This document shows positions 7,132-44,570 of a DNA stretch of 64,000 nucleotides, one piece after another (position 1 is the stretch's first letter; each line of letters opens with the position of its first letter). The translations under genes were made by a program, and so were the position numbers. The stretch comes from Halothiobacillus sp. (lineage in GTDB: Bacteria > Pseudomonadota > Gammaproteobacteria > Halothiobacillales > Halothiobacillaceae), in contig JAGXIF010000033.1 of NCBI GenBank assembly GCA_024635755.1, forward strand, positions 62,001-126,000, in the 5' to 3' direction. Under the pieces are notes generated by a model, which was not told the origin of the DNA, ran no database searches, and saw only the letters and a program-made list of their open reading frames with translations.

Positions 7132-7317
7132 GCGTTACTCTCGACGGAAGGTGAACCGATTGGCCGCCCAGATTAGCATTTTTGCCTCGATGACTGGTTG
7201 TCGCATGGCATGTGGTGGGGGTTACGACTACGCTAAATGCGCTTGCGTGAATTGGTTCAAACCGCCTCTTTTCACAAGGCGGAGCCAGTCAGATCCACTC
7301 CGGGCCTCGGTGCAGCA

Positions 7318-8427
7318 ATGAATCCCTGTCAGCCTTCTCGTCGCGCCGTTTCCCTCGCACTCGCTTTTGCGATGGTGGCCATGACGTCCCTAGCCGGTTC
7401 CGTCGGGGCGGCAGAAGGCCCCCGTGTCGTCACCGAGACCGCCGAACCCACCGAGATTATCGAGGTGGTTTCACTCGACGGCACGGTCAACAGCCTGCAC
7501 ACGGCGGCGTTGTCGGTGGAGATTGCCGGGCTTGTCGAGGCGGTCCTGGTGGAAACGGGAGACCGGGTCACCGCCGGCACACCACTGTTCGAACTGGATG
7601 CCGAACTCGAGCGGTTGTCGGTGACCAGTCTCGAGTCCGAACGGCGTGAGGCCGTCGCCGCTCGGGAGGAGGCGGCTCGTCGTCTCGTGGAGGCAAGATC
7701 GGTCGGCGCCGGGCGGAATATCCCGCAAACCGAGGTCCGGGCCCGTGCCGCTGCCGTCGAGCAAGCGAAAGCCCGCGTGGCGCGGCTTACCGCCAATCTC
7801 GAACGGGGCCGGGCACGGCTCGATCGCCACCGGCTTGTTGCCCCTTTCGATGGCGTGGTGAGCGAGCGGCACGCGGAGCGAGGCGAATGGGTCTCGCCGG
7901 GGGAGGCGCTGGTGAATCTGGTCGACCGAGATGCACTTCGCCTGGATTTCCCCGTCCCTCAGCGCTACTACCCGCTGCTTGGCGAGGATGCCACGCTTGA
8001 TTACCGCGTGGATGGCTCGACGACGGATTGGCAATCGGCCGACATCGCCACCGTGGTGCCGGTCACCGATCCGACCTCGCGGACCTTCCTGCTGCGGGGA
8101 CAAACCATTGGGACCAAGCCATTGCTTCCGGGTATGGCGGTGGAGGGGCGCTTGCGGTTGCCGACTGGGCGTGAGGGGCTGACTGTGGCGAGGGATGCCA
8201 TACAGCGGTATCCGGATGGGCGCACCACGGTGTGGGTACTCGAGGACGTCGCCGCGCAGACGGTGGCCGAGCGGCAGGTCAACCTGGCGGATGGTTTCGA
8301 TGATCGTGTGGTGGTGACCGAGGGCCTTGCAGCCGGTATCGAGGTGATCGTGCGCGGCAATGAGGCATTGGAAGCGGGCATGGAAGTGCGCGTCGAGGGT
8401 GGTGATACCCAGGCGGGGGGCGACTAA
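7318..8427 (+). CDS. RND efflux periplasmic adaptor (membrane fusion) subunit
   Basis: Signal-like N-terminus, barrel-sandwich lipoyl-like halves and coiled-coil; 1-bp overlap with downstream RND permease. Confidence 0.88.
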   Translation: MNPCQPSRRAVSLALAFAMVAMTSLAGSVGAAEGPRVVTETAEPTEIIEVVSLDGTVNSLHTAALSVEIAGLVEAVLVETGDRVTAGTPLFELDAELERLSVTSLESERREAVAAREEAARRLVEARSVGAGRNIPQTEVRARAAAVEQAKARVARLTANLERGRARLDRHRLVAPFDGVVSERHAERGEWVSPGEALVNLVDRDALRLDFPVPQRYYPLLGEDATLDYRVDGSTTDWQSADIATVVPVTDPTSRTFLLRGQTIGTKPLLPGMAVEGRLRLPTGREGLTVARDAIQRYPDGRTTVWVLEDVAAQTVAERQVNLADGFDDRVVVTEGLAAGIEVIVRGNEALEAGMEVRVEGGDTQAGGD

Positions 8428-11400
8428 TGTTCGCCGCGGTTGTCCGACACGGCACGCTGGTCACCGTTGTTACCCTGATCATCGCGATCCTGGGGGCGGT
8501 TGCCGCATTGCGGATTCCGGTGCAGATGATCCCGGATCTCGACGTGCGCACCATCACGATCGAGACCCGTTGGCCCGGTGCCACGCCACAGGACATCGAA
8601 AAGGACATCCTGATCGAGCAGGAGCGCTTCCTGCGTAACATCCCGGGCCTGGCGGAGCTCAACGCCACCGCCACCAGCGATGCAGCCGAGATCGAACTGG
8701 AATTTCCCTTCGGAACGGACATCACCGAGGCGTTGATCGAGGTCAACAATGCCTTGAGCCAAGTGCCCGACTACCCGCGCAACGTCGACGAGCCGCGCAT
8801 CGCAGCCACGTCGTTTTCCTCCAATGCCTTCATGTACTTCCGGGTCGCGACGCTGCCGGGCAACCCGCGCGGCCTCGACATCGATCTGATGCGCGATTTC
8901 GTCTACGACGAGGTCCGCCCGCGCATGGAGAGCGTGCCGGGCGTCTCGGAGGTCACCATGCGCGGCGGGGCCGAGCGGCAGATGCAGATCCACGTCGATG
9001 AACGCCAGCTGGCGCGACGCGGACTAACACTGCTCGATCTGCGCGATACCATCCGGGCGCGCAACCAGGACATCTCCGGCGGGGAGTTGGATTCCGGCAA
9101 GCGACGCTATCTCCTGCGTACGGTGGGCCGTTTCGCCAGCGCCGAGGAGCTTGAGCAACTGGTGATCACCCGCAGGGGCGATGCCGTCATCCGGCTGGGT
9201 GACGTGGCGAAGGTCGCCCAAGGCGGTTCGCGTCAGCGAGGGCTCGCCTTTACCAACGGCCAGAAGGTGATCGGCCTGCAGGTACGGCGCGAGAGTGGCT
9301 CGAATGTCATCGACATCAAATGCGCGATGCTTGAGCAGGTCGAGCGCATCAACGAGGAGGTGCTCAAGCCGGCCGGGATGATCCTAGAGCTCAACACCGA
9401 CGATGCCCGCTATGTGCAAGCATCGATTCAGAATGTCTGGGTCAATCTGGGGCTGGGTGCGGCCTTCGCGACGCTGGTGATGTTCCTATTCCTGCGCTCG
9501 ACGCGTGCGACCCTGGTCGGGGTCATCGGCATTCCGCTGTGTGCGATCGCCGCGTTTCTCGGGCTGCTGGTCACTGGCCGGACCATCAACGTCATATCGC
9601 TCGCCGGGGTTGCCTTCGCCATCGGCATGACCGTCGACAACAGCATCGTCGTACTGGAGAACATCGAGCGACTGCGTCGCCGTGGCATGGCCCGTATGGA
9701 ATCCGCCGTCGAGGGTGTGCGAGAGGTCTGGCCGGCGGTGCTCGCCTCGACGGCGACCACGGTGCTGGTCTTCCTGCCGATTCTCTTTATTCAGGAAGAA
9801 GCGGGGCAGTTGTATTCGGATGTGGCCATCGCGATTGCTGCGGCGATCGTCGCCTCCATGTTGGTGGCGGTGATGCTGATTCCGACGCTCAGCGCGCGTC
9901 TGGATTTCGGTCGCGCAGGAAACGAAGGGGTCGCGACGCCGGCGTGGGGAGGGATCATCGAATCCGGCGTGCGCGGCATGATCGGGTCGCGCACGCGGCG
10001 CTGGACCACCATGGCTGTGGTCTTGGCGGTGAACGTGTCGATCGTCGTGTTTCTCACGCCGGCGGCCGAGTATCTCCCCGAGGGGGAAGAACCCAAGACC
10101 TTCGCGGTGATGAACGCGCCGCCGGGCTACAACCTCGACGAGATGGCGCGGATTGCTGAGGAGGTCGAGGCGCACCTCCTGCCGGCGGTCGAGGCGGATC
10201 CAGGTGCCTTCGAGCGAGGCGAGACGCCCGTGCCGCCGCTACGCAATCTGGTCATGCAGGTTCAACCGACCCGGATACGGGTGATCTCGGAGACGATCGA
10301 TCCCAGCCATATCGAGCCGCTAATGACCGAAATCACCCGGTTCTACGAGCAGTATCCGGGGATGCGGGCGTTCGCGGCCAAAGGGTCGATCATCTCGAGC
10401 AATGACGGCGGCACCCGCAGCATTTCGCTGGATATCGCCGGTCCGGACTTGGCGGATATCTACGAGGTCGCCAATCGTGCCTACGAACGGGCCGAGGTGA
10501 TTTTCGATGATCCGCGCATCCAGACCCGTCCCTCGACCCTGGAACTCGCCCAACCGTTGGTCGAGATCCGTCCGGATTGGAACCGTGCCGCGGAGCTGGG
10601 GGTGAGCTTGGAGGCGATCGGCTTTTCCGTCTCGGCCCTCACGGAAGGGGCCTACGTGGACGATTTCTTTCTCGACGACGACAAGATCGACATCTACCTC
10701 TACGGTTCCGGCGGGCGCGACCCGCGTCTGGCGCGACTCGACGAGATCCTGCTGAAAAGCCCCCAGGGTGCCAGCATGCCGTTGTCATCGATCGCGCGCA
10801 TAGACACGCGGGTGGACACCAGTATTGTCCGCCGCGTGGATGGCAAACGAATGGTGACCCTCGACATCATCCCGCCGGATTCTGTGGCCCTGGAGACCGG
10901 CGTCGAGCGAGTTCGCGAGGAACTAGTTGGTCAGATGCGTGCGGCTGGGGAGGTCCCCGCTGGTGTCAGCCTGTCCATCTCCGGGGCGTCCGATCAGCTT
11001 AACGCCACCCGGGAGGCGCTTTCCGGCAATTTCGTGATCGCGCTGGCGATCATCTACCTGCTCCTGGTTGCTATCTTCACCCACTGGCGCTACCCATTGC
11101 TGATCATGACCGCGATTCCGCTCGGCATCGCCGGGGGCATTGCCGGGCTGGCGCTGATGAACCTGGTGGGTGGTCTGCTTCCGGCAATCGGAGTGAAGGC
11201 CATCAGTCAGCCGTTCGACATGATCACCATGCTCGGCTTTCTCATCCTAATGGGGACGGTGGTCAACAATCCGATCCTGCTGATCGAACAGGCCCGACGT
11301 AGCTTTGCCGACAGACGTGACGCGGTGGAGGCGGTGATGGATGCCGTCTCGGTGCGGCTGCGCCCGATCGTGATGACCACGTTGACCACCCTCAGTGGGC

Positions 11401-11567
11401 TCTCGCCGCTGGTGCTCATGCCGGGGGAGGGGACCGAGCTTTATCGTGGGGTCGGGGCGATCGTGATGTTCGGCTTGCTCGGCGCGACCATCGTGACACT
11501 GACCTTCCTGCCCGCCCTGACCGCAACCGTTCTCGGCATCGCGCAACGGCGTGCACGAACGGATTGA
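8427..11567 (+). CDS. RND efflux permease (HAE1/AcrB-type)
   Basis: 1046 aa; VAFAIGMTVDNSIVVLENIERLRRRGM and LILMGTVVNNPILLIEQARR motifs. Confidence 0.93.
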   Translation: MFAAVVRHGTLVTVVTLIIAILGAVAALRIPVQMIPDLDVRTITIETRWPGATPQDIEKDILIEQERFLRNIPGLAELNATATSDAAEIELEFPFGTDITEALIEVNNALSQVPDYPRNVDEPRIAATSFSSNAFMYFRVATLPGNPRGLDIDLMRDFVYDEVRPRMESVPGVSEVTMRGGAERQMQIHVDERQLARRGLTLLDLRDTIRARNQDISGGELDSGKRRYLLRTVGRFASAEELEQLVITRRGDAVIRLGDVAKVAQGGSRQRGLAFTNGQKVIGLQVRRESGSNVIDIKCAMLEQVERINEEVLKPAGMILELNTDDARYVQASIQNVWVNLGLGAAFATLVMFLFLRSTRATLVGVIGIPLCAIAAFLGLLVTGRTINVISLAGVAFAIGMTVDNSIVVLENIERLRRRGMARMESAVEGVREVWPAVLASTATTVLVFLPILFIQEEAGQLYSDVAIAIAAAIVASMLVAVMLIPTLSARLDFGRAGNEGVATPAWGGIIESGVRGMIGSRTRRWTTMAVVLAVNVSIVVFLTPAAEYLPEGEEPKTFAVMNAPPGYNLDEMARIAEEVEAHLLPAVEADPGAFERGETPVPPLRNLVMQVQPTRIRVISETIDPSHIEPLMTEITRFYEQYPGMRAFAAKGSIISSNDGGTRSISLDIAGPDLADIYEVANRAYERAEVIFDDPRIQTRPSTLELAQPLVEIRPDWNRAAELGVSLEAIGFSVSALTEGAYVDDFFLDDDKIDIYLYGSGGRDPRLARLDEILLKSPQGASMPLSSIARIDTRVDTSIVRRVDGKRMVTLDIIPPDSVALETGVERVREELVGQMRAAGEVPAGVSLSISGASDQLNATREALSGNFVIALAIIYLLLVAIFTHWRYPLLIMTAIPLGIAGGIAGLALMNLVGGLLPAIGVKAISQPFDMITMLGFLILMGTVVNNPILLIEQARRSFADRRDAVEAVMDAVSVRLRPIVMTTLTTLSGLSPLVLMPGEGTELYRGVGAIVMFGLLGATIVTLTFLPALTATVLGIAQRRARTD

Positions 11568-38135: not shown

Positions 38136-38654
38136 TCAGGGCGCGCGCCGCCCTTCATATTCGAGCAGCCGGCTTTTTATCGCCGTCCCATGGGCATAGC
38201 CGCCCAATCGACCGTGGGCGGCCAGGACGCGATGACAGGGCACCAGCAAGGTCCAGGGATTGCAGCCCACCGCCTGACCCACGGCCCGCGCTGCATTCGG
38301 GCGCCCCAGGCGTTCGGCCAACTGGCCGTAACTGCATGTCTCGTCGGCTGCCAGCGCGCACAGCCCCCGCCAGACCGTCCGTTGGAAGGCGGTTCCCCGT
38401 GCCGGGAATAGCGGATGACTCGTCCAGTCGATCTGCTCGCGCGCCGATTGGGGCCATCGCCGGATCGCCGTCTCGATCTCTTCGATACCGCCGGGCAGGG
38501 CGGATTGGTTTGGTTGGGGCATCTCGCCGGTCGCCCAGTTGAGGTCGATCGATTCGATCCGGTTGGCCGTCACGGTTAGCCACGCACAAAGGCCGGTATC
38601 TCCCACGGGGACGGACACCGGTCCTTGTTCATCATGCGGATCCATTCCGAGCAT
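38136..38654 (-). CDS. ogt: Methylated-DNA--protein-cysteine S-methyltransferase
   Basis: VPCHRVLAAHGRLGGYAHG active-site motif. Confidence 0.93.
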   Translation of the reverse strand: MLGMDPHDEQGPVSVPVGDTGLCAWLTVTANRIESIDLNWATGEMPQPNQSALPGGIEEIETAIRRWPQSAREQIDWTSHPLFPARGTAFQRTVWRGLCALAADETCSYGQLAERLGRPNAARAVGQAVGCNPWTLLVPCHRVLAAHGRLGGYAHGTAIKSRLLEYEGRRAP

Positions 38655-41600
38655 CAGTCCCCCGGTCGTTTGCGGCGGAACAGTTTCTCGCTGCCGGTCT
38701 GCAGTAGCTCGAAGAACATCGGGATGAACAGGATCGCCACGTAGGTCGCCAGGATCATCCCGCCGACGATCGGCGTGCCCAGCGAATTGCGTGCCGCCTC
38801 ACCGGCGCCGGTGGCTAGAGCCAGCGGCAGCACGCCGAGGATGAAGGCCATCGAGGTCATGATCACCGGCCGGAAACGGATGCGCGCGGCCTTGAGTGCG
38901 GCCTCCTTGATCGACAGCCCGTCCTCGGTGTGCATCTTCGAGGCGAATTCGACCACCAGGATGGCGTTCTTCGCCGACATCGCGATTAGTACAAGCATGC
39001 CGACCTGGAAGTAGATATCGATGTTCAGGTCGCGCATCCAGATCGCGATCAGGGCGCCGAGCACGGCGAACGGCACCGCGGTGATCACGGCGAAGGGCAG
39101 GGACCAGCGCTCGTATTGCGCGGCGAGGATCAGGAACACCATGATCACGCCCAGCAGGAAGGCGATCGCCCCGGCCGAACCGCTGGAAAGCTCCTGGAAG
39201 GCCGAACCGACCCAGCCCAAGGTGTAATCGCCGCCGCCGAGCGTCTGGTCGATGACCTCTTGCATGGCGGTCAGGGCCTGGCCCGAGGAGTACCCCTCGG
39301 CCGCACTGCCCATGATCTTGGCCGCCGGGAAAATGTTGAAACGGTCGATCACGTCCGCCCCGGTCGTGCGGGTGAGGGTGACCACCGAGCTGATCGGCAC
39401 CAACTGTTGATCACCGCTGCGCACGAAGACGTTTTCCAGGTCCTGCGGGTCGGCGCGGAACTCGGCATCCGCGGCCATATTGACCTGGAAATTGCGGCCA
39501 TACAGGCTGAAGTCGTTGATGTAACGGGCACCGAAGGTGCCCTGCATGGTACGGAATACCGCAGAGACCGGCACGTCGAGGGCGTATGCCTGCTCACGGT
39601 CCACGTCCATGCGGAATTGCGGCGTGTTGTCGACGAAGGTGGTGCGCACCCCGGCCAGCTCCGGCCGCTGGTTCGCTGCGGCGACCAGGGCATTGGCGGC
39701 CTCGGCGAGTGCCTTGACGTCGGCCGAGCCGCGCTGCTGGAGATAGGCCTCGAAACCACCGGTGGTCGACATGCCACGGATGGGCGGTGGCGTGAACGCC
39801 ATGATGAAACCTTCCTCGATCTGGGTTCCCGCCCCCATGGCTTTCTTGACCGTCGCCTGGACGCTCTGGTCATCGTCGGGGCGTTCTGACCAGTCGTTGA
39901 GCCGCGTGAAGGCGACCCCCTTGTAGGGCCGCTGGGTGCCTGCCAACAGATCGAAGCCGGCGAAGGCGACCTGCATCTGTACGTCCGGGTTCTCGCGGAT
40001 CATCGCCGAGTACTCGTCCCGCACTTCAGCCGTACGCGAGACGCTCGCCGCTGGATCGAGATTCAACGTGGAGATGAAGTAGCCCGGATCTTCCTCGGGG
40101 ACGAGACCGGTCGGGGTGCTGCGGAACATCACCACGGCGGCGATCACGACGCCGGCGAATATCAGCAGGCCCACCGGCCAGGCCACCAGGAAGAAGTGCA
40201 CCAGCTTCATGTAGCCATTGCGGAAGGCATCGAAGCCACGGTTGAAGATCCGAAACGGCAGGACCGGCTCCTTCTCCTGGTGATTCTTCAGAAGCAGGGC
40301 GGTCATCGACGGCGTGAGGGTCAGGGCGACCACGCCGGACAGCACCACCGAGATCGATAGGGCCACGGCGAACTGGCGATACATCTCGCCGGCCAGGCCC
40401 GGGATGAAGGCCACCGGCACGAACACGGCAAGCAGGACGAGGGTCGTGGCAACGATCGGCCCCGTGACCTGCTCCATGGCCTTGATGGATGCCTCGCGGG
40501 CCTTGAGGCCTTCCTCGCGCATCAGGCGTTCGACGTTCTCGATCACGATGATCGCATCATCCACCACGATGCCGATCGCCAGCACGAAGCCGAACAGGGT
40601 CAGCAGGTTGATCGACATGCCGGAAAGGAACAGACCTGCCAGGGCGCCGATCAGGGCGACAGGGATCGCGATCAGGGGCACGATGGTCGCGCGTGGCTTT
40701 TGCAGGAAGATGAAGATCACCAGCGTGACCAGGATCAACGCCTCGACAAATACCTTGAGGACTTCCTTGATCGAGATACGCACGAAGTCGGTGGTATCTA
40801 GCGGAATCTTGTAGTCCATGTCGCCTGGGAATCGCTCGGAGAGCTCTTCCATCCGCCCACGCACCTCGGCCACTGTTTCCAGGGCATTGGCGCCGGGGGC
40901 GAGATAGATGCCCATCGGGACAGTGGGCGCGCCGTTGTAGGTCGCGTTGAAACCGTAACGCTGCGATCCCAGTTCGACCTCGGCCACGTCGCTCAGGCGC
41001 AGCGTCCCGCCATCCTCGGACGAGGCGAGGATGATGTTCTGGAATTGCTCGACGTCGGAAAAGCGCCCCTGGGAAGTGATGGTGTAGGTGAACGCCTCGC
41101 CTGCCTTGTTGGGCGAGTCGTTGAACTTGCCGGCGGCAAACTGGGCGTTCTGTTCGCGGATTGCCTCGGCTATGTCGTCCTGGGTGAGGTTGAAGTGCGC
41201 GAGTTTCGCCGGGTCGAACCAGACTCGGATGGAATAGTCCTGCGCACCGAACAGGCGGGCATCGCCGATGCCGGGCACCCGCTTGAGCGAGTCGAGGATG
41301 TTGATCAGGCCGTAGTTACTCAGGAACTTGGTGTCGAATTCCTCGTTTTCCGAGATCAGCGTAATGACCATCAGCAGCGCACTGCTTTTCTTGTTGACCA
41401 CCACGCCCTGGTTGCGCACTTCCTGCGGCAGCTGGGGCAGGGCGCGCTGCACGCGGTTGTTGACGTCGATGGTCGCCTGATCGGGGTCGGTGCCGGTGGC
41501 GAAGGTGACCGAGAGGTTCATGGTGCCCGCATCCGAGCTTCCGGACGTCATGTAGAGCATGTCGTCGACGCCGTTGATCGCCTGCTCCAGCGGGGCGGCA

Positions 41601-41785
41601 ACCGACTCGGCCAGGGTGCTCGCGTCAGCACCAGCGTAGGTGGCGCTCACCTCGACCTCGGGCGGCACGATCTCCGGGTACTGCTCGACGGGCAGCCCGG
41701 TGAACGCGGCCCCACCGGCGATCATGATCACGATCGCCAGCACGGTGGAGAAGATCGGGCGGTCAATGAAGAACTTGGAAAACAT
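38654..41785 (-). CDS. RND efflux permease (AcrB/HAE1 family)
   Basis: 1043 aa; MFSKFFIDRPIFSTVLAIVIMIAGGAAFTGLPVEQYPEIVPPEVEVSATYAGADA. Confidence 0.97.
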   Translation of the reverse strand: MFSKFFIDRPIFSTVLAIVIMIAGGAAFTGLPVEQYPEIVPPEVEVSATYAGADASTLAESVAAPLEQAINGVDDMLYMTSGSSDAGTMNLSVTFATGTDPDQATIDVNNRVQRALPQLPQEVRNQGVVVNKKSSALLMVITLISENEEFDTKFLSNYGLINILDSLKRVPGIGDARLFGAQDYSIRVWFDPAKLAHFNLTQDDIAEAIREQNAQFAAGKFNDSPNKAGEAFTYTITSQGRFSDVEQFQNIILASSEDGGTLRLSDVAEVELGSQRYGFNATYNGAPTVPMGIYLAPGANALETVAEVRGRMEELSERFPGDMDYKIPLDTTDFVRISIKEVLKVFVEALILVTLVIFIFLQKPRATIVPLIAIPVALIGALAGLFLSGMSINLLTLFGFVLAIGIVVDDAIIVIENVERLMREEGLKAREASIKAMEQVTGPIVATTLVLLAVFVPVAFIPGLAGEMYRQFAVALSISVVLSGVVALTLTPSMTALLLKNHQEKEPVLPFRIFNRGFDAFRNGYMKLVHFFLVAWPVGLLIFAGVVIAAVVMFRSTPTGLVPEEDPGYFISTLNLDPAASVSRTAEVRDEYSAMIRENPDVQMQVAFAGFDLLAGTQRPYKGVAFTRLNDWSERPDDDQSVQATVKKAMGAGTQIEEGFIMAFTPPPIRGMSTTGGFEAYLQQRGSADVKALAEAANALVAAANQRPELAGVRTTFVDNTPQFRMDVDREQAYALDVPVSAVFRTMQGTFGARYINDFSLYGRNFQVNMAADAEFRADPQDLENVFVRSGDQQLVPISSVVTLTRTTGADVIDRFNIFPAAKIMGSAAEGYSSGQALTAMQEVIDQTLGGGDYTLGWVGSAFQELSSGSAGAIAFLLGVIMVFLILAAQYERWSLPFAVITAVPFAVLGALIAIWMRDLNIDIYFQVGMLVLIAMSAKNAILVVEFASKMHTEDGLSIKEAALKAARIRFRPVIMTSMAFILGVLPLALATGAGEAARNSLGTPIVGGMILATYVAILFIPMFFELLQTGSEKLFRRKRPGD

Positions 41786-41855
41786 CGGTGATCTCCGATG
41801 CCCTCGTCAGGAGGGCGTCACGGGCAGGTAGGGTTTGACGGTAAGTGGGAGACGA

Positions 41856-43010
41856 TCAGTCGCCGTCGTTTTTACTCGGGTCTTGCGGGTCGACCGGTGC
41901 GCCCGGACGCACCTTGAGCAGACCGTCGATCACCAACCGATCGCCCGGCTCGAGGCCGGACAGGATGATGCGTCCCTAGTCGCTCATCGGACCGAGTTCC
42001 ACGCGCCGTTGGGCGGCCTTGTTTTCCTCGTCGATCACGAAGACCACGGTGCTGTTGGGCTCCGCACCGGTGCCGATGGCCGTTTCCGGGATGATCACCG
42101 CGTCCTGGACCTCGTCGACTTTCAGGCGGACACGAACGTAGCGGTTCGGCCGCAGGACATCCCCGGGGTTGTCGAACACACCGCGCAATTGGATCGAGTT
42201 GGTGCCGCGCTCGATGCTCGCCGAGCGATAGTCGAGTTCGCCGGTGATCGCCTCACCCTCGGGGCCGGTAATGCCCGCAACCTCGGCGGGCGTTGTCTGC
42301 TCGGGGGTGGGATTGAGGGCGGCCGTGTCGGCGAACGGATCGTCAACCGGATAGGAGAGGGTGACCTGGATCGGGTCGATCTCCTCGATGCTGACCAGCC
42401 GGTCGCCGACGCTGATCAGGTTACCGGGGTCGACAGCGCGCCGGCTCGCGATGCCCGGGATGGGTGCCGGCACCGAGGTGTAGTCAAGGTCGATCTGGGC
42501 GGATTCGAGTTGTGCCTCGGCGACCTGGACGCCTGCCTGGGCAGTTTCCAGCGTCGAACGGGCGTCATCCCGTTGTTTCTCGCTGGCCACGCCACGATCG
42601 AACAGCGAATTGATGCGGCGCCAGTCGCGCTGCGCAGCGGCCAAGGTCGCTCGCGCCGAGGTGAGGTCAGCCTCGGCCTCGTTCACCGCGGCTCGGAACG
42701 GGCGGTCATCGATCTGGAATAGCGTGTCTCCGGTTTCCACCCGTGCGCCCTCGACGTAATCGCGGGATTCGAGGATGCCGTCGACCTGGGCGCGCACCTC
42801 GACATGACGGTTGGCCTCGGTACGACCGGTGTATTCCTTGTAGACCGCGGCACTGCTCGGCTCGATCTGGATGACCGGCACCTTGGGTGGTGGCTGGCCG
42901 CCCGTTTGTGCCTGCGCGGGCAGGCCGCTGGCAAGCAGCAGCGCGGCCGGCGCAATCGCAGCAACAAGTCGGCGAGTGGTGAGTGCGGGAAGGGCGCTGA
43001 TCGGGGACAT
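41856..43010 (-). pseudogene. RND efflux periplasmic adaptor (AcrA/MexA-like) interrupted by in-frame amber codon at 41976-41978
   Basis: ORF 41976..43010 ends ...VELGPMSD then TAG; same frame continues GRIILSGLEPGDRLVIDGLLKVRPGAPVDPQDPSKNDGD to TGA at 41856-41858. Confidence 0.85.
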
Positions 43011-43112
43011 GGGTGTTGTACCGTGTCGGCGGCAGGCCTGACCTGCCATTGGGTAGAAGCACGAGAATCCGGCGGATCCATGGGAAGGTGGCCGCGGGAA
43101 GAAAGATAGTAT

Positions 43113-43126
43113 ACTAACTACTTAGT
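43113..43126. promoter_or_regulatory. Candidate TetR-type operator palindrome upstream of RND adaptor
   Basis: ACTAA-CTAC-TTAGT in the 43011-43208 intergenic region. Confidence 0.4.
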
Positions 43127-43226
43127 TTGCCAGCAATCCCGGGAACGCCGGTGGCGCCGGGATGCCCCGCGGGGTGAGCTGAACTTAGGCTAAGCTGGGC
43201 GGGAATTCATGTACGGAGGCTCGATC

Positions 43227-43571
43227 GTGAGCGAGACCATATTCAGCAAGATCATCAATCGCGAGATTCCGGCCGATATCGTCTTCGAGAACGACCGGAT
43301 ACTGGCGTTTCGCGACATCAATCCGCAGGCGCCGGTGCATCTGCTGATCATTCCGAAAAAGCCCATTCCGACGGTCAACGCCATCGCGCCCGAGGATGCG
43401 GCGCTGGTGGGGGAGCTGTTCGTCGTCGCCGGGGAGCTCGCCGCGCAGGAAGGGATCAACGAGTCGGGCTATCGCACGGTGTTCAATTGCAACCGTGATG
43501 GGGGTCAGGAGGTCTATCACCTGCACCTGCACCTGCTTGGCGGGCGGGCGATGGAGTGGCCCCCGGGCTGA
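43227..43571 (+). CDS. HIT family (HinT-like) hydrolase
   Basis: TIFSKIINREIPADIVFENDRILAFRDINPQAPVHLLIIPKK; HLHLHLLGGR HIT triad; GTG 43227 or ATG 43209 start. Confidence 0.92.
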   Translation: MSETIFSKIINREIPADIVFENDRILAFRDINPQAPVHLLIIPKKPIPTVNAIAPEDAALVGELFVVAGELAAQEGINESGYRTVFNCNRDGGQEVYHLHLHLLGGRAMEWPPG

Positions 43572-43583
43572 GCCGGGCTGGAT

Positions 43584-44561
43584 TCAACCGTTTGCGTCGC
43601 GCATGGCCTGATATTGGGCAAGTCGGCGCTCAAGGATGTCGCCGTCCGCTACGGCCGCACGCACTGCGCACCCCGGTTCGTTGATATGGCGACAGTCATT
43701 GAAACGGCAGTAGGCCGACGCGGCATGGATCTCGGGGAAACCGTCTTCCAGGGCGGCTGACGGCACCTCGTCGACTGGGAAATCCCGTACGCCGGGGGCG
43801 TCGATCAGCCCACCCTCGCCATCCGGGAACCGGTATAGCGTGCTAGCGCGGGTGGTGTGCGTGCCTTCCCGGTTGAACGTCGAGATTTCGCCGATGGCGG
43901 CCTGATCGGCGCTTGGGGTGATCTCCCGAGACAAGGACGTCTTGCCAACCCCCGACAACCCCACCATCAGCGTGATCTGTTCGTGCAGCCGGGCGCGCAG
44001 TGTCCCGATGCCGTCACCGGACTTCACCGAGGTGCGAATGACCTCGAAACCCAGTGATTCCCACAGGGCGATGTTTTCCACGATGACCCGTCGCTCGCCC
44101 GCCGGCAGCCCAGGCAACAGATCGGCCTTGTTGAGCACGATCACCGGCGAGGCCGGCAGGGCAAAGACGGCCACTAGGGTGCGCTCGACCACGTCCGGGT
44201 TCATCCAGGGGATCACCGAGGTGATCACCAGCACCTGGTCTATATTGGCGGCCATCATCTTCTTCTTGCCATAGGCGTCGGGACGGATCAGCAGGTTGCG
44301 GCGATCCTCGCGCTGCTCGATCATCACGTTTCCCTGCTCGTCGCAGTGCCAGCGGATGCGGTCGCCCGTGGTCAAGCGCCCGACGGTCCGTCGGGCACGA
44401 CCGCGGTGGAGTTCGTGATCGCTGTCCTCGATCAGCAGATCGTGGCCGTGATGAGTCACCACGATGCCCGTGGACAACGAGGTGTCAGCCTCGGCGCCCA
44501 CTCGCCGTCGGCGGTCGACGTGACGTTGCTGCTGCTTGCTCAGACGAATCTTGCGAGTCAT
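43584..44561 (-). CDS. rsgA: Ribosome small subunit-dependent GTPase A
   Basis: GLSGVGKTSL P-loop, circularly permuted GTPase motifs, CRFNDCRHINEPGCAV zinc region. Confidence 0.95.
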   Translation of the reverse strand: MTRKIRLSKQQQRHVDRRRRVGAEADTSLSTGIVVTHHGHDLLIEDSDHELHRGRARRTVGRLTTGDRIRWHCDEQGNVMIEQREDRRNLLIRPDAYGKKKMMAANIDQVLVITSVIPWMNPDVVERTLVAVFALPASPVIVLNKADLLPGLPAGERRVIVENIALWESLGFEVIRTSVKSGDGIGTLRARLHEQITLMVGLSGVGKTSLSREITPSADQAAIGEISTFNREGTHTTRASTLYRFPDGEGGLIDAPGVRDFPVDEVPSAALEDGFPEIHAASAYCRFNDCRHINEPGCAVRAAVADGDILERRLAQYQAMRDANG

Positions 44562-44570
44562 GCCTCAGGC

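Follow-up and report, generated by a model that had tools for sequence, protein, structure and literature searches.

The closest described relatives of the protein considered here are the RND periplasmic adaptors of the AcrA, MexA and MexC type (TIGR01730), whose membrane-proximal domain has been reported to be essential for assembly and function (PMC8277102). Efflux by AcrAB-TolC is dramatically impaired when AcrA residue G363 is substituted (Ge et al. 2009, cited in PMC4446572), and Salmonella AcrA G363F resembles a strain without four adaptors (PMC6975555). The adaptor gene that we describe here resembles this type in all the domains that precede an in-frame TAG, and also across the TAG when it is read through, and it shows the same operon order; it differs in that the TAG removes the last 40 residues, and with them the C-terminal part of the membrane-proximal domain. 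Two other kinds of described systems bear on this locus. Amber recoding, as achieved by suppressor tRNA, by pyrrolysine or in TAG-reassigned phages, shares with it an in-frame TAG that is followed by conserved coding sequence. Ordinary bacterial nonsense pseudogenes, or loss-of-function alleles, share with it the single transition, the recency, the intact flanks and the presence of related pumps elsewhere in the genome, and we see no difference from them. We consider it fairly probable that the locus carries a very recent single-base nonsense mutation in an AcrAB/MexAB-like RND adaptor of one Guyparkeria genome, with the pump probably inactivated. We see here an ordinary gene that was broken, probably very recently, or else a mistake in the assembly, and not a new genetic mechanism.

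The window, meaning the whole stretch of 64,000 nucleotides that was analysed, corresponds to bases 62001-126000 of a 196-kb contig, and the amber site is internal to this contig. The assembly is that of a Guyparkeria (2.23 Mb, 51 contigs, 88%-complete), and the named genomes nearest to it belong to Guyparkeria and Halothiobacillus species, which are environmental halophilic sulfur oxidisers (PMC9032823).

The interrupted adaptor and its predicted product

The features that we discuss are the following:
43101..43120, minus strand: block with TTAGTATACTA and the palindrome TAGTATACTA upstream of the adaptor, from the congener alignment
41979..43049, minus strand: RND periplasmic adaptor ORF up to the amber codon, 357 codons when counted from the first ATG
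41976..41978, minus strand: in-frame amber codon TAG in the adaptor, from reading of the sequence and alignment of ten congeners
41859..41975, minus strand: open stretch of 39 codons following the TAG and encoding the C-terminal part of the membrane-proximal domain, from identity to the congener G007 and the TIGR01730 match
41856..41858, minus strand: TGA, the original adaptor stop, where the orthologues end, from the sequence and the orthologue comparison
38654..41785, minus strand: intact RND (AcrB-type) permease of 1043 aa, NF000282 and TIGR00915 above cut-off, PF00873 at 1078 bits

The adaptor frame, including the codons downstream of the stop, spans 43049..41859 on the minus strand, and around the stop this strand reads ...GGT CCG ATG AGC GAC TAG GGA CGC ATC... 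A preliminary description of this DNA had placed an in-frame TAG at 41976-41978 of an AcrA/MexA-like adaptor, and both the coordinates and the peptide that it quoted are exact. It had also likened the 39 codons after the TAG to the normal membrane-proximal domain of the family; they are all open, encode GRIILSGL...KNDGD before the TGA and, on read-through, carry the TIGR01730 match to position 321 of 322. The permease follows the adaptor directly, and the gap between them, which had been called a typical one of ~70 nt, measures 70 nt from the TGA to the permease ATG at 41785. The ATG at 43010..43008 is the likelier adaptor start because a signal peptide (MSPISALPALTTRRLVAAIAPAALLLASGLPAQAQ) begins there, giving a product of 344 aa.

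The truncated product still matches the adaptor profile (TIGR01730 RND_mfp) at 208.7 bits and the read-through product at 243.5 bits, both above the cut-off of 94.9. The lipoyl, hairpin and beta-barrel domains are retained before the stop, and the membrane-proximal domain is incomplete, the truncated match covering profile positions 1-288 of 322. In a phmmer alignment, G376 of the read-through protein aligns with AcrA G363, and it lies within the lost segment together with the predicted strands E360-364, E371-373 and E387-389. These strands come from a structure model of the read-through protein (8 sequences, mean pLDDT 76, pTM 0.56), which served solely to assign secondary structure to the lost segment.

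We propose that a C to T transition would have converted CAG to TAG in the adaptor gene, and that RF1 would end translation there. The product would then lack its last 40 residues, and with them the last membrane-proximal strands and the glycine that corresponds to AcrA G363. Such an adaptor should not engage the permease correctly, which probably leaves the pump inactive, even if the 344-aa adaptor might retain partial function.

Probable recency of the stop and reliability of the base

The preliminary description had called for a comparison with orthologues, and had regarded close homologues naturally ending at ...GPMSD as what would speak against an interruption. The adaptor orthologue is present in all ten congeners searched, and at the amber position nine of them have CAG and the tenth, the most divergent, AAG. 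All ten proteins run past the site to full length, their stops lying at the corresponding place, 63 to 84 nt ahead of the permease gene; none ends at ...GPMSD. The relatives carry a sense codon one substitution away from TAG, as expected of a recent nonsense allele. The earlier proposal of a single substitution without frame decay stands as well, the frame being otherwise intact and CAG having been among the suggested ancestors.

By protein, the closest congener is G007, in which the 39 codons after the TAG are identical at the amino-acid level, with 6 synonymous and no nonsynonymous differences. If substitutions were unconstrained (~70% of random ones being nonsynonymous), the probability of finding 0 of 6 nonsynonymous would be about 8e-4, and on this sequence comparison chance cannot explain that the segment is open and conserved. 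Most of the six synonymous differences are probably older than the stop, and the comparison therefore shows that constraint acted on the segment until very recently, not that it is translated at present.

We then considered private changes, counted at bases on which six congeners agree with one another and this genome departs from them. In the adaptor, 9 such changes are synonymous and 1 is nonsynonymous over 300 codons upstream of the stop, and the codons downstream of it have none; the permease shows 20 synonymous and 7 nonsynonymous ones. These counts are within the range of intact congeners. No footprint of relaxed selection was found in the private changes of the adaptor and permease, and decay after the stop is absent, as it should be in a recent nonsense allele. 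The lack of such a footprint means that the stop is either young or an error.

An error is the second explanation, and we hold it to be rather unlikely: the TAG would be a consensus error, or the base of a minor strain, in a fragmented and probably metagenome-derived assembly, and the gene would be intact in the organism. The MAG-like character of the assembly, with its 51 contigs and 88% completeness, is in keeping with this, and so is a stop that comes without accompanying decay of any kind. However, the site lies inside a 196-kb contig, transitions such as this one are the commonest of real mutations, and no other interruption was found in the genes compared. When ORFs from the syntenic regions of four congeners were compared with the window, the adaptor was the sole gene internally stopped in its true frame among about 46 conserved window genes. 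A generally decayed or error-prone assembly finds no support, as the other flagged stops fall either where the relatives' ORFs extend upstream or into non-coding DNA, or in shadow frames on the antisense strand (judging from the examples that were read). At the scale of the assembly, where our statements rest on family searches, no stop was found within 12 ACR_tran and 32 ABC_tran matches. The error background is therefore low, and we infer that the TAG base is real. Among the explanations offered in the preliminary description, we thus judge the recent null or truncated pump to be the most likely, with a consensus error second.

The nearest relatives carry GAC CAG G at this place, which makes a CCAGG site, and cytosine methylation at CCAGG makes amber hotspots in E. 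coli. A Dcm-type mutation hotspot is unsupported here, since neither a Dcm nor a Vsr homologue was found in the assembly, from which ~12% of the genome is missing; an ordinary C to T transition is enough to account for the stop.

Amber readthrough and a shortened adaptor as unlikely alternatives

Amber suppression or readthrough had also been put forward, and it finds no positive support. According to this explanation, which we regard as very unlikely, a suppressor tRNA or inefficient termination would give some full-length adaptor, and the downstream part would remain under selection. The downstream frame is indeed perfectly conserved, but the recency of the stop accounts for this equally well. 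ARAGORN gave no CUA anticodon among the 34 tRNA hits, a set from which Trp, Glu, Ile and some others are also missing, and this incompleteness leaves some room for a suppressor; the tRNA entered as 'tag' carries leucine and decodes CUA codons. RF1 is present in the assembly, and the stops of the conserved window genes (>60% identity to the congener G009) are TGA in 28 cases, TAA in 8 and TAG in 7 including the adaptor. TAG thus ends six conserved genes besides the adaptor, and it therefore terminates normally; a change of the genetic code is rejected on the same grounds. This sets the locus apart from the known cases of amber recoding, as does the lack of an in-frame TAG at this codon in all ten congeners. 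A TAG conserved in the relatives, or the absence of RF1, would have pointed to recoding, and neither holds. It is more improbable still that readthrough, through an unassembled suppressor tRNA or through context, yields some full-length adaptor with its leakiness setting the amount of pump.

That the truncated adaptor is a functional, naturally shortened variant is scarcely credible: it keeps the lipoyl, hairpin and beta-barrel domains and shows no relaxed selection upstream of the stop on this lineage, but the adaptors of all ten congeners extend beyond this point, and it loses the glycine whose substitution severely impairs AcrA (PMC6975555, PMC4446572).

Redundancy and surroundings of the pump

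According to the family search, the assembly carries ten RND permease genes of full length, nine besides that of this pump, and at least two of the others are of the AcrB class, judged by score. The loss of this pump could be tolerated because of this redundancy. The window itself holds a second RND adaptor-permease pair, which is intact, at 7237-11567. The finding has little importance beyond this genome; it illustrates cleanly a newly arisen loss-of-function allele in an environmental chemolithoautotroph whose efflux systems are redundant, and it warns against calling this pump functional just because its genes are present.

The permease is 97% identical to its orthologue in G009. A gene with an O6-methylguanine-DNA methyltransferase DNA-binding domain (38136-38654) begins at the permease stop, and because of this coincidence it may belong to the pump operon. 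The adaptor-permease locus and its neighbours (38670-44566) have ~91% DNA identity to G007, and the rest of the window ~70-85%; the proteins may be under strong constraint here, or the region may have recombined within the genus. Finally, in the block upstream of the adaptor (43101..43120), the palindrome TAGTATACTA is a perfect one of 10 bp, and the alignment shows that the TTAGTA part is kept across most of the genus and that the TATCTTT-like stretch after it is also conserved. This block likely serves the pump operon as its promoter or as an operator and, if it is an operator, its regulator is perhaps of the TetR type.
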